32,697 nucleotides of DNA from Minisyncoccota bacterium (GTDB lineage: Bacteria > Patescibacteriota > Minisyncoccia > Phycocordibacterales > GCA-2747955), in the NCBI GenBank assembly GCA_020629435.1, contig JAHDDI010000003.1:24075-56771 (forward strand), written 5' to 3'. The translations under genes and the position numbers were made by a program. Below, piece after piece: positions 10,316-30,522 of this stretch. Numbering within the stretch: the first letter of the stretch is position 1; each line of letters opens with the position of its first letter. The notes under the pieces were generated by a model. That model worked only from the letters and a program-made list of their open reading frames with translations, was not told the origin of the DNA and made no database searches.

Positions 10316-11221
10316 TTACCAATTATTTGCAGTCTTCTTTGCAAATGAATGGACAAGGAAATCAATGAACGTGCGAACCTTGGGCTGCGTGAAACGACCC
10401 GAAGGATACACCGCATAGATACCCTGGGTCTCGAACGGAAGACCAGGAATCGCTTCTTCGACCAGACCCTTCTCTAGTGCATCCGCGCAGAGGAACGACG
10501 GAAGGTACGCGATACCGAGGCCCGAGACCGCTGCATTCAACAGGGACTGACCGTCGTTAACCGTCAACCAACCTGTTGTGCGCACCTGACGCTTTTCGCC
10601 AGATGGCGCTGTTAGTTTCCAAACAGCTGAATTTGCCTGATTGGAATAGTGCAGCAACTTGTGGTCGTTCAGATCGTCGATCTTTTGAGGGCGACCGTAT
10701 TGCTCAAGGTAACCTGGAGAGGCAACCATGCGACGCGAAGTTTCCGCCAGCTTGCGAGCGCGCAATGTACTGTCTTCCATTTCCCCAATGCGTATCGCCA
10801 TGTCGAACCCCTCACCGATCAGTTCAGCATGTCGGTTGTTGAGAACCATGTTCACTGTGATATCAGGAAATTCACTCAGGAATTCACCAAGAATGGGTGA
10901 GATATGATTCACTCCAAAATCAGTTGCGACACTGATCCGTAACAGGCCCGTCGGGACTGATTGCATCGAAGTCACCAGCGCATCTGCTTCACCCGCATCG
11001 TTAAGAACGCGACGAGCGCGGTCGTAATACGCCAGACCAATTTCAGTTGGACTAACACGACGTGTTGTCCGATTCAGTAACCGTGCACCAAGACGAACCT
11101 CAAGACTTGAGACGTGTTTCGAGACGGCGGATTTTGAAATCCCCATCTTTTTCCCTGCGTCAGTAAATCCACCTTGATCCACAACTGTGGCAAAAGCTTC
11201 CATTTCAGTCAAACGATCCAT
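10316..11221 (-). CDS. LysR-family transcriptional regulator, probably alphaproteobacterial in origin
   Basis: MDRLTEMEAFATVVDQGGFTDAGKKMGISKSAVSKHVSSLEVRLGARLLNRTTRRVSPTEIG HTH; noticeably higher GC than neighbours. Confidence 0.95.
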   Translation of the reverse strand: MDRLTEMEAFATVVDQGGFTDAGKKMGISKSAVSKHVSSLEVRLGARLLNRTTRRVSPTEIGLAYYDRARRVLNDAGEADALVTSMQSVPTGLLRISVATDFGVNHISPILGEFLSEFPDITVNMVLNNRHAELIGEGFDMAIRIGEMEDSTLRARKLAETSRRMVASPGYLEQYGRPQKIDDLNDHKLLHYSNQANSAVWKLTAPSGEKRQVRTTGWLTVNDGQSLLNAAVSGLGIAYLPSFLCADALEKGLVEEAIPGLPFETQGIYAVYPSGRFTQPKVRTFIDFLVHSFAKKTANNW

Positions 11222-27650: not shown

Positions 27651-27795
27651 GCTATGTTTTTGGGCATCTCAATCCTACACAAGCAACTTATTATATTATT
27701 TGCTTCGGTTTTTTTATTATTAACTTTTTGGAATATATATCCATGTATCCTCACTCTGTTCTATACAAAATAGCTTTTTTCAGTATCTTTTTTTG

Positions 27796-28042
27796 TCCGT
27801 TATTCAAACACTACTAGCTTCGACCAAACTACCTGTTGGTCTGCAGATAGTGTTTGGAATAAAGGACGGAGGTGTTATTCAGTTCCGATTATGTAATTTA
27901 GCTTGAGGTTCAAGTACAATTTTAATACTGTATTAATTCCACCGTTACAACTTTTCTTGAACCCCTGCAGACGAGACGATTAGATGGTTTTTTCCTTCAG
28001 GCAGTCTCGTCGAAGCCAGTTCAAAAAAAGTTAGTAATAAAA
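27796..28042 (+). ncRNA. Candidate structured RNA, copy A
   Basis: Homologous to 30114-30421 (reverse strand). Stems: 27796-27813/27848-27870; GACCAA/TTGGTC 27822-27827/27836-27841; CAGT/ACTG 27880-27883/27927-27930; AACTTTTCTTGAAC/GTTCAAAAAAAGTT 27949-27962/28019-28032; GACGAGAC/GTCTCGTC 27970-27977/28004-28011. Confidence 0.7.
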
Positions 28043-28179
28043 AAAATTCCAAAGCAGATACTAAAAATTTTAAACAATCAAAGTGATGATGCACAAGCGC
28101 AAATGTACATATCCAAAGACTATGTCTTTACAAAACCACGCAAGCTGCAAACAAGAACCTACTTAGTCGAAAATAGACT

Positions 28180-29328
28180 TTATGCAGAAAATTTTCGAAC
28201 AGCCGAGAACAGCTTTCGGGTTAGATTTCGTAGTAGACCCCTATTTTTTGATCGCTCTTGATCCATTGCTTGAATAGCGACCCCGTAAACACTTGCCCAC
28301 CCCAGTTCACGCTCATCTGCATCTTGCCTTTTGAATGCACGAATGAGTGCCTTTCTGGTAGGTATTTTTAACACATCACGCGCCAACATATCAATATCTT
28401 GTAACATTGACCCTGCACCGCACAAAACAGCTCCTCCTGGCAAATTACCACTCTTTTCGATTGATTTTAAGTCAGCGTTTACCTTCTTAAAAATATCGAT
28501 TGTTGCTTTTTTAATTGTTGCGTGAACTTTCTCCGAACTAATTGATGCGGCAATTGGCCCTCCTAATTTAATTATTTCTGCGTCAGACACAGATATTTGA
28601 TATTCCAATGCTATGGCCTGAGTAATTGAATCACTTCCTTGTTCCAAATATCCTACATGAATTGGAGCATCGTGCTCATAAACAACATATGATGTTGCGT
28701 CGCTTCCAATATCAATCAACACACATCCTACCTTTCTATCTATGGTAGACAGCGACACTATACTAGCGCCAATAATAGCTGGTAAAAAATCTTCGGTGTC
28801 TACTTCAATCTGGTCCAGTACGTCTTCTGCTGCATCGATATTCTGACTAGCATAATTAAATAGCATTGCTTCAACATCTAATTTCTTACCCTTCATTCCT
28901 ATTGGTTCTGATACTGTTTCTTGTCCGTCCAGCTTGTAGTGCAAAATAATTGAATCTATATTTCTCTGGTTTGTTGACAGAGTTTTTTTAACTGAACGCC
29001 TGATGGATTGTTCGATATCAAATTCTGTCACAATAGAGTCACCGTGACTGACCGCAACTGGAGAAGACACAATTTTTGTTGCCATGGGTCCACCACCTGC
29101 GGTTACATATATTTCTTTTATCTGCTGACCAATTTGTTTTTCTGTTAATCGGATTGCTTTTTTGACTGCTACGTACACATCCGATTTATTGGTAATGTAT
29201 CCATTACGCACCCCTGCAGATTGTGCACTAGATCGTGCTAATAAAACAATTTTTTCATCACGCAATTGGCCCGCGACAACGCGGATTGTATTACTCCCTA
29301 TATCAATTGCTGCAATAATTTGTGACAT
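28180..29328 (-). CDS. ftsA: FtsA-like actin-family cell division protein
   Basis: AAIDIGSNTIRVVAG; GCVLIDIGSDATSYVVYE; GGAVLCGAGSMLQDI; amphipathic C-term GLLRNLTRKLFSAVRKF. Confidence 0.85.
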   Translation of the reverse strand: MSQIIAAIDIGSNTIRVVAGQLRDEKIVLLARSSAQSAGVRNGYITNKSDVYVAVKKAIRLTEKQIGQQIKEIYVTAGGGPMATKIVSSPVAVSHGDSIVTEFDIEQSIRRSVKKTLSTNQRNIDSIILHYKLDGQETVSEPIGMKGKKLDVEAMLFNYASQNIDAAEDVLDQIEVDTEDFLPAIIGASIVSLSTIDRKVGCVLIDIGSDATSYVVYEHDAPIHVGYLEQGSDSITQAIALEYQISVSDAEIIKLGGPIAASISSEKVHATIKKATIDIFKKVNADLKSIEKSGNLPGGAVLCGAGSMLQDIDMLARDVLKIPTRKALIRAFKRQDADERELGWASVYGVAIQAMDQERSKNRGLLRNLTRKLFSAVRKFSA

Positions 29329-29333
29329 AATAA

Positions 29334-29711
29334 TTAAATACCAAATTGTTTTCTAAATTTGGACTCCAGTCTATCCATTGTAGCACCGTGGTCGTGCCCC
29401 TTCAAATGCACTAATCCGTGGACAAACAAAAATCCTACAAAATTTTCAAAAGTACGGTCAAAATTTTTATATTGTTTTTTACACACCGGCAGACAAATAA
29501 ACATTTCTCCTGTTGTGCCTGACAGTGGAAACGACAATATATTAGTTGCATAATCCTTGCCTCTACTTTCTCTATTTATTTTTCGCATCAAATGTTCTCC
29601 ACAAAAAACCAAAGATAATTCATATTTGTTACCCAACACCGCAGCGGCCATCTCGTTGTAGTTATATTTTTTAGGGAACACTGAACGAGTTGTATTTGAG
29701 ATATCTATCAT
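29334..29711 (-). CDS. ybeY: Endoribonuclease YbeY
   Basis: DYATNILSFPL; FVHGLVHLKGHDHG metal-binding motif. Confidence 0.93.
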   Translation of the reverse strand: MIDISNTTRSVFPKKYNYNEMAAAVLGNKYELSLVFCGEHLMRKINRESRGKDYATNILSFPLSGTTGEMFICLPVCKKQYKNFDRTFENFVGFLFVHGLVHLKGHDHGATMDRLESKFRKQFGI

Positions 29712-29738
29712 ATCTCTAGTATACGCTAGGAGTGAGAC

Positions 29739-29772
29739 ATAAACAAAAACCCCTTGAGGGGTTTTTGTTTAT
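29739..29772. terminator. 15-bp palindromic terminator between rpsU and ybeY
   Basis: ATAAACAAAAACCCC ttga GGGGTTTTTGTTTAT. Confidence 0.8.
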
Positions 29773-29779
29773 AGTTGTA

Positions 29780-30004
29780 CTATTTAATTTTTCCCATTTT
29801 TCGAAGCATGTCTCGCTCTTCTGTTTTTTGAATCTTACGTAGAGCAATATTTTTTCGTTTTAATGCAGATGGTTTTCGTTGTTCAAATTTCTGAGATTTC
29901 AGTTTGTTAACTACTCCTGCTCCTCGAACTTTTTGAGTAAACCGTTTTAAAGTACCCAAGGTATTTTCTTTTTCTTTTTTTGTGATGTGTGCGTTTAGTG
30001 CCAT
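29780..30004 (-). CDS. rpsU: 30S ribosomal protein S21
   Basis: Small basic protein; LKRFTQKVRGAGVVNKLKSQKFEQRKPSALKRKNIALRKI. Confidence 0.8.
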   Translation of the reverse strand: MALNAHITKKEKENTLGTLKRFTQKVRGAGVVNKLKSQKFEQRKPSALKRKNIALRKIQKTEERDMLRKMGKIK

Positions 30005-30113
30005 AGTGGCCAGTAGAATAACATATTTTTATTACTACGCAATAGCTCAACAATACGTTTTGTGCTGCCTAATACTGTTTATCGTAAACTATCCTACTTC
30101 TTGTCGCGGCATA

Positions 30114-30421
30114 TTTTGTTACTAACTTATTTCAAACTTGCTTCGTAGCTACTACCTGTCAGTAAATTCTTGTCCATCGTAGCTACTGCAGGGTTTGAAA
30201 TAAGTTGTGACGGTAGAATTCCTGTACCATTAGATTTTAACTAATCTTGAAATCTAATTACCAGAACAGAAGTAAGCCCTCCCACCCCTTTATTCCAAAC
30301 ACTATCCGCAGACCAAACGAACTGAATAGTTATTTCAACCAGGTAGTTTGGTCGGGCTAGTCTCACGGTTTTACAAACCTAGACTATCATGTATACAAAG
30401 CTGGTAGTGTTTGAATAAAGG
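30114..30421 (-). ncRNA. Candidate structured RNA, copy B
   Basis: Stems (plus coordinates): 30405-30421/30287-30304; TAGTCT/AGACTA 30358-30363/30381-30386; GTTTGGTC/GACCAAAC 30346-30353/30311-30318; AAATCTAAT/ATTAGATTT 30250-30258/30229-30237; 14-bp perfect 30193-30206/30124-30137; GTAGCTAC/GTAGCTAC 30179-30186/30145-30152. Confidence 0.7.
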
Positions 30422-30522
30422 CAGAAAAATTGCCGGATTAAAAGTTAGGTATGTTTTAAGTAGAATGGAGTGAGAGTGAACTAGACACATAACCCAAAAC
30501 AATACACCCATAGATTATACTT

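Follow-up and report, generated by a model that had tools for sequence, protein, structure and literature searches.

Dispersed palindromic hairpin elements at the ends of an inverted ftsA-ybeY-rpsU segment in a Minisyncoccota genome

Two similar sequences, A (27796-28042, + strand) and B (30114-30421, - strand), lie in inverted orientation around the ftsA-ybeY-rpsU segment (28180-30004, - strand) of the window, the 32,697-nucleotide stretch of Minisyncoccota DNA analysed here, and raise the question of whether such a pair represents a structured RNA present twice or a repeat that acts as DNA. An earlier note had proposed the former, an unrecognised RNA in two diverged inverted copies with compensatory base changes, and its coordinates and shared sequence blocks proved to be as described. 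Used as a query against the whole genome, A returned B at E = 5e-14, a similarity beyond chance; as the note had also expected, no reading frame that looks like a gene spans the element, and no Rfam family accounts for it, the matches being chance ones both at the gathering threshold and at a loose E-value. The folds of both sequences are better than those of dinucleotide shuffles (z of -5.9 for A and -4.0 for B). In the segment between them, FtsA and YbeY score over their Pfam cut-offs, and Ribosomal_S21 (E 0.003) scores below its own.

Anatomy of the two elements

The repeated unit is a leader (~60 nt; consensus near TGCACCCTYACTCTGT...TATTTTATTT..TTTCGG) followed by an imperfect hairpin (~100 nt), the latter composed of an outer stem, an internal loop with AGCTTCG opposite CTGCAG, a variable inner stem, and a loop starting CTACCTG. 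Leaders were delimited by alignment of all units, and hairpins by their folds, by covariation, and by matches to R1, a covariance model built from hairpin 2 only.

In A, the leader of hairpin 1 (CTCACTCTGTTCTATACAAAA...) occupies 27743-27791 (+) and the hairpin itself 27792-27870 (+), where R1 matches at 27778-27872 (+) with 26 bits (E 1.9e-5); the fold gives TTATTCAAACACTA/TAGTGTTTGGAATAA as the outer stem, with AGCTTCG at 27816-27822, the loop ACTACCTG, and CTGCAG at 27841-27846. A spacer with no strand of its own (27873-27938) leads to hairpin 2 (27939-28054), which has its motif on the - strand and its leader side on the right, and which covaries and matches R1 at 121 bits. B begins with the leader of its hairpin 2 (GTGCTGCCTAATACTG..., 30040-30102, +), continues with hairpin 2 (30103-30216, +; 110 bits to R1, and likewise covarying), in whose inner stem TAGCTAC replaces ACGAGAC, and ends, beyond the spacer (30217-30287), with hairpin 1 (30288-30421, -) and the leader of the latter (TCACTCTCACTCC..., 30422-30480, -). 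Hairpin 1 of B rests on its fold and on an R1 match to its core (30310-30354, -; 21 bits), and the extra hairpin that had been reported in B is present in that fold, at about 30356-30387.

When the two spacers were aligned locally, 207 of 300 shuffles aligned as well as the real pair. Since the spacer is therefore unconserved, the description of A and B as aligned end to end is incorrect.

Copies, covariation and the case for RNA

Seven element sites, four paired and three single, are dispersed through the host genome (G000; 698 kb, 86% complete), all of them intergenic and non-coding. Two units in opposite orientation make up A, B, C14a (about 8.06-8.6 kb of contig C14) and C2 (about 43.7-44.4 kb of contig C2), and hairpin 2 stands alone at C14b (16.04-16.16 kb of contig C14), C7 (2.32-2.43 kb of contig C7) and C18 (15.96-16.07 kb of contig C18). 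A and B are thus copies, as the earlier note had it, but of an element with seven sites, and every full copy comprises the hairpin motif twice, once on each strand. R1, though derived from hairpin 2, detects hairpin 1 on the other strand at all four paired sites (21-53 bits), and the genome has six exact occurrences of GTTACTAACTT, which forms the foot of hairpin 2, all of them within elements. Supposed relics of hairpin 1 at C18, C7 and C14b were unconvincing (29, 311 and 28 of 500 shuffles, respectively, were equally good).

Hairpin 1 has the outer stem TTATTCAAACACTA at two of the paired sites, A and B, and GTTCTTT...AAACACAA at the other two, C14a and C2, which are 78% identical through both leaders; BLAST confirms the leader similarity for C14a and C2, and more weakly for A. 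Because a whole copy is two inverted blocks around a short unconserved spacer, it carries terminal inverted repeats, which are present at A, at C2 and, as TGCACCCTTA.../TGCGCCCTTA... ends, at C14a, and are absent from the single-module sites. At A and C2 an extra leader lies outside hairpin 1, and it is this extra leader (TTTGCTTCGGTTTTTTTATTATTAACTTTTTGG, 27698-27733, +, in A) that forms the outer arm of the inverted repeat of A (27709-27729 with 28025-28045, 95% complementary).

Covariation was assessed in hairpin 2, of which the one genome supplies seven copies. In this set 96.9% of the cells are paired, 13 pairs show double-sided change, and covariation scores 0.418, compared with 0.157 for shuffled and at most 0.134 for slid controls; the stem pairs that the earlier note had named as compensatory exist, and the stems covary across all seven copies. 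The copies agree least in the inner stem (identity 0.42) and the apical loop (0.52), and most in the outer stem (0.85) and the internal loop (0.91). That the internal-loop motif has been kept while the stems were rewritten suggests that the folded structure is what is recognised. A pseudoknot between loop CCTG and internal-loop CAGG is, by reading, unsupported because no matching change accompanies GTAG in the copies that have it.

In pairwise comparisons of hairpin 2, 127 differences are double-sided and 46 single-sided, and the pairs are almost purely Watson-Crick, a pattern that would also fit old inverted repeats held palindromic by template switching at replication, not by selection. To this explanation we give very little credence, given that the asymmetric internal loop GCTTCG/CTGCAG is 91% identical and has never been corrected to perfect pairing, which points to selection on the motif.

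The strong fold z-scores, the strong covariation and the conserved loop sequences would all be at home in a family of structured non-coding RNAs, either paralogous small RNAs or processing and stability hairpins in untranslated regions, and in six of the seven copies of hairpin 2 the fold of the GCTTCG strand is slightly better than that of the complementary strand. ERIC-type repeats can affect mRNA when transcribed, and similar known families can act as RNA if co-transcribed (PMC2229807, PMC2267715); by analogy, an RNA effect of the present elements on neighbouring genes is possible.

Against an RNA family stands the conserved single-stranded motif GCTTCG...CTACCTG...CTGCAG, which the two hairpins of a full copy carry on opposite strands, so that no single transcript contains both in the same sense. 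A structured RNA should also show clearly more G-U than A-C pairs, and the 28 core pairs, read on the motif strand, contain four G-T and two A-C in about 195 cells, a small sample on which the low G-T content is based, with no strand bias. The hairpin, then, is kept, its pairs nearly all Watson-Crick and neither strand firmly marked as the functional one. Promoter-like sites around the elements are in no excess over shuffles.

The settings of the elements are unrelated, neither neighbour gene nor orientation being consistent across sites. A lies between the convergent hisS and ftsA, and B between rpsU and an ftsB-like gene; the other settings are secA|DUF1761, secE|prfA, upstream of rpsS, between genes for a pentapeptide protein and an rluD-like protein, and between the divergent mscL and tgt, where some of the names (DUF1761, secE and prfA, for example) are what we take the genes to be from their sequences rather than from Pfam matches.

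The earlier note had looked to many homologs in related genomes for support, and none appeared beyond the host genome. A covariance-model search of the 60 nearest relatives found no element. Wider searches covered 397 genomes of the order and 380 of the phylum, counts that include the host genome, and apart from the host none gave a match; these searches scored nine candidates per genome and can miss weak copies. The genomes that came up included no second member of the genus, no homologue was found in other genera, and phages and plasmids yielded no element. Two BLAST matches of A in relatives, outside the host genome, were chance matches of A/T-rich sequence, and pattern matches in viral and genome contigs were rejected because they do not fit the covariance model.

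An RNA family thus seems to us unlikely. The absence from Rfam, the lack of a reading frame and the covariation all stand as the earlier note would have them, but the opposite-strand motif, the lack of strand bias, the dispersed settings and the rearrangements described below do not suit an RNA gene.

Inversion and insertion at the elements

In two relatives, G001 and G004, the gene order is hisS-rpsU-ybeY-ftsA on one strand, and here it is hisS-A-ftsA-ybeY-rpsU-B, an exact inversion whose ends are the elements A and B, themselves in inverted orientation. G001 also has prfA followed by tgt, whereas in the host genome prfA has C14a beside it and tgt has C18. The gap between secA and DUF1761, which contains C2, is 1350 nt here and about 70 nt in G001, and that between rplL and rpsS, which contains C14b, is 1430 nt here and about 310 nt in G001. 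These adjacencies in G001 are empty sites, though not base-exact ones, G001 being of another genus, and the insertions at C2 and C14b exceed the length of the elements. All but one of the element-free adjacencies compared are kept in G001, the exception being tgt/AcrB-like, where other genes lie between, and no inverted repeats of the same kind were seen in the compared stretches of relatives. Given that the comparison covers a few stretches picked around the elements, it establishes an association and not a cause.

Several further features of these regions were observed. Between rplL and rpsS, at about 16243-17193 of contig C14, a frame of at least 266 aa adjoins C14b and runs into an assembly gap; it has no Pfam or NCBIfam match. 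Between secA and DUF1761, a GC-rich, foreign-looking segment (about 44400-44900 of contig C2) is inserted together with C2 and contains a 64-aa frame (MKKFALPGL...) and a sequence resembling a promoter (TTGACA/TAATAT); the inserted frames near C2, the 64-aa one included, have no NCBIfam match. Assembly gaps, each a run of 100 N flanked on either side by the same sequence, occur inside or near the elements at C2, C14a and C14b; hairpins, or a population in which both orientations exist, may be their cause, and similar gaps occur elsewhere too. Away from the elements, the window holds a gene for a LysR-type regulator (10316-11221, -), flanked by an rseP-like gene and one for a ribosomal protein, with a GC content of about 0.50-0.52 in surroundings of about 0.38-0.42 and about 45% identity to Azospirillum plasmid LysR proteins, and this gene is likely a horizontal transfer or an assembly chimera.

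Conserved unpaired motifs on freely changing stems are what would be expected if structure, not sequence, were recognised, and raise the alternative of structure-guided recombination sites like integron attC, at which a recombinase would read the internal loop of the folded hairpin and inverted pairs would drive inversions. The exact A/B inversion and the reading frames inserted next to C2 and C14b fit such sites. On the other hand, the genome has a single tyrosine recombinase match (PF00589), in a 315-aa frame, as for a housekeeping Xer, the stem ends do not, by reading, fit the R-boxes RYYYAAC/GTTRRRY, and there is no cassette array. Moreover, the hairpins of A and B have diverged from each other, and the A/B segment is present in the assembly in one orientation only. 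We regard attC-like sites as distinctly improbable.

The opposite-strand motif, the single and paired modules, the lack of strand bias, the lineage restriction and the coincidence with rearrangements and insertions speak for a DNA element rather than an RNA gene, and we consider it probable that A and B are two of the seven sites of a lineage-restricted, MITE-like element, a palindromic, non-coding DNA repeat interspersed in the genome and able to insert and recombine. In such an element the hairpin-bearing ends would be recognised as DNA, as a cruciform or a folded single strand, by a putative enzyme acting in trans, through which the element could have spread into intergenic regions, and the copies would then have served as substrates for the recombination that inverted ftsA-ybeY-rpsU between A and B. 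No transposase of the Y1 family was found in the host genome (86% complete), and the seven copies, being diverged, give no sign of recent transposition. No target-site duplication was found at C14a, C2 or B, and the offset 7-mer at A can be chance, the ends of the elements being placed to within several bases; several accepted repeat families are likewise without a recorded target duplication (PMC2229807).

Relation to known repeat families

MITE-like stem-loop repeats, among them ERIC/IRU, RPE (Rickettsia palindromic elements), Correia/NEMIS, RUP and YPAL, have been reviewed (PMC2229807), and with these families the present elements share being short, non-coding, intergenic, palindromic, dispersed and lineage-restricted, with inverted repeats and long stem-loops. 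They differ in that full copies here are about 250-400 nt and consist of two inverted hairpin modules, in that the stems have been almost fully replaced between copies and yet still pair, and in that the copies are few, without a detected target duplication, and positioned at synteny breaks. Stem-loop families that include double-hairpin ones are known (PMC2267715), and the CIR repeats of Caulobacter and Brucella and the 'double hairpin' families also have two long stem-loops per unit (PMC2229807, PMC2267715); compared by description, the hairpins here differ in sharing one motif on opposite strands and in occurring as single-hairpin copies too.

REP/BIME sequences, associated with RAYT (Y1), are likewise extragenic palindromes in inverted pairs, but REPs are 20-40 bp, most of them tagged GTAG or CGTC (PMC3733652), whereas the hairpins here are about 100 nt and no Y1 enzyme was found in the genome. 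The integron attC sites are similar in being imperfect hairpins with variable stems and conserved unpaired features, and dissimilar in their core-site consensus, which by reading the present hairpins lack, in their cassette arrays, and in their integron integrase, of which none was identified here.

Good descriptions of repeated palindromic elements exist for enterobacteria, Neisseria and Rickettsia, and our literature search turned up no paper on such elements in Patescibacteria or the candidate phyla radiation. The kind is already known, from ERIC, RPE and Correia, and this family is new. A family that keeps its pairing and its loop motif on rewritten stems, and that sits at the ends of an exact inversion, would offer a handle on how reduced genomes are rearranged, and it also serves as a warning that covariation inside one genome does not prove an RNA.
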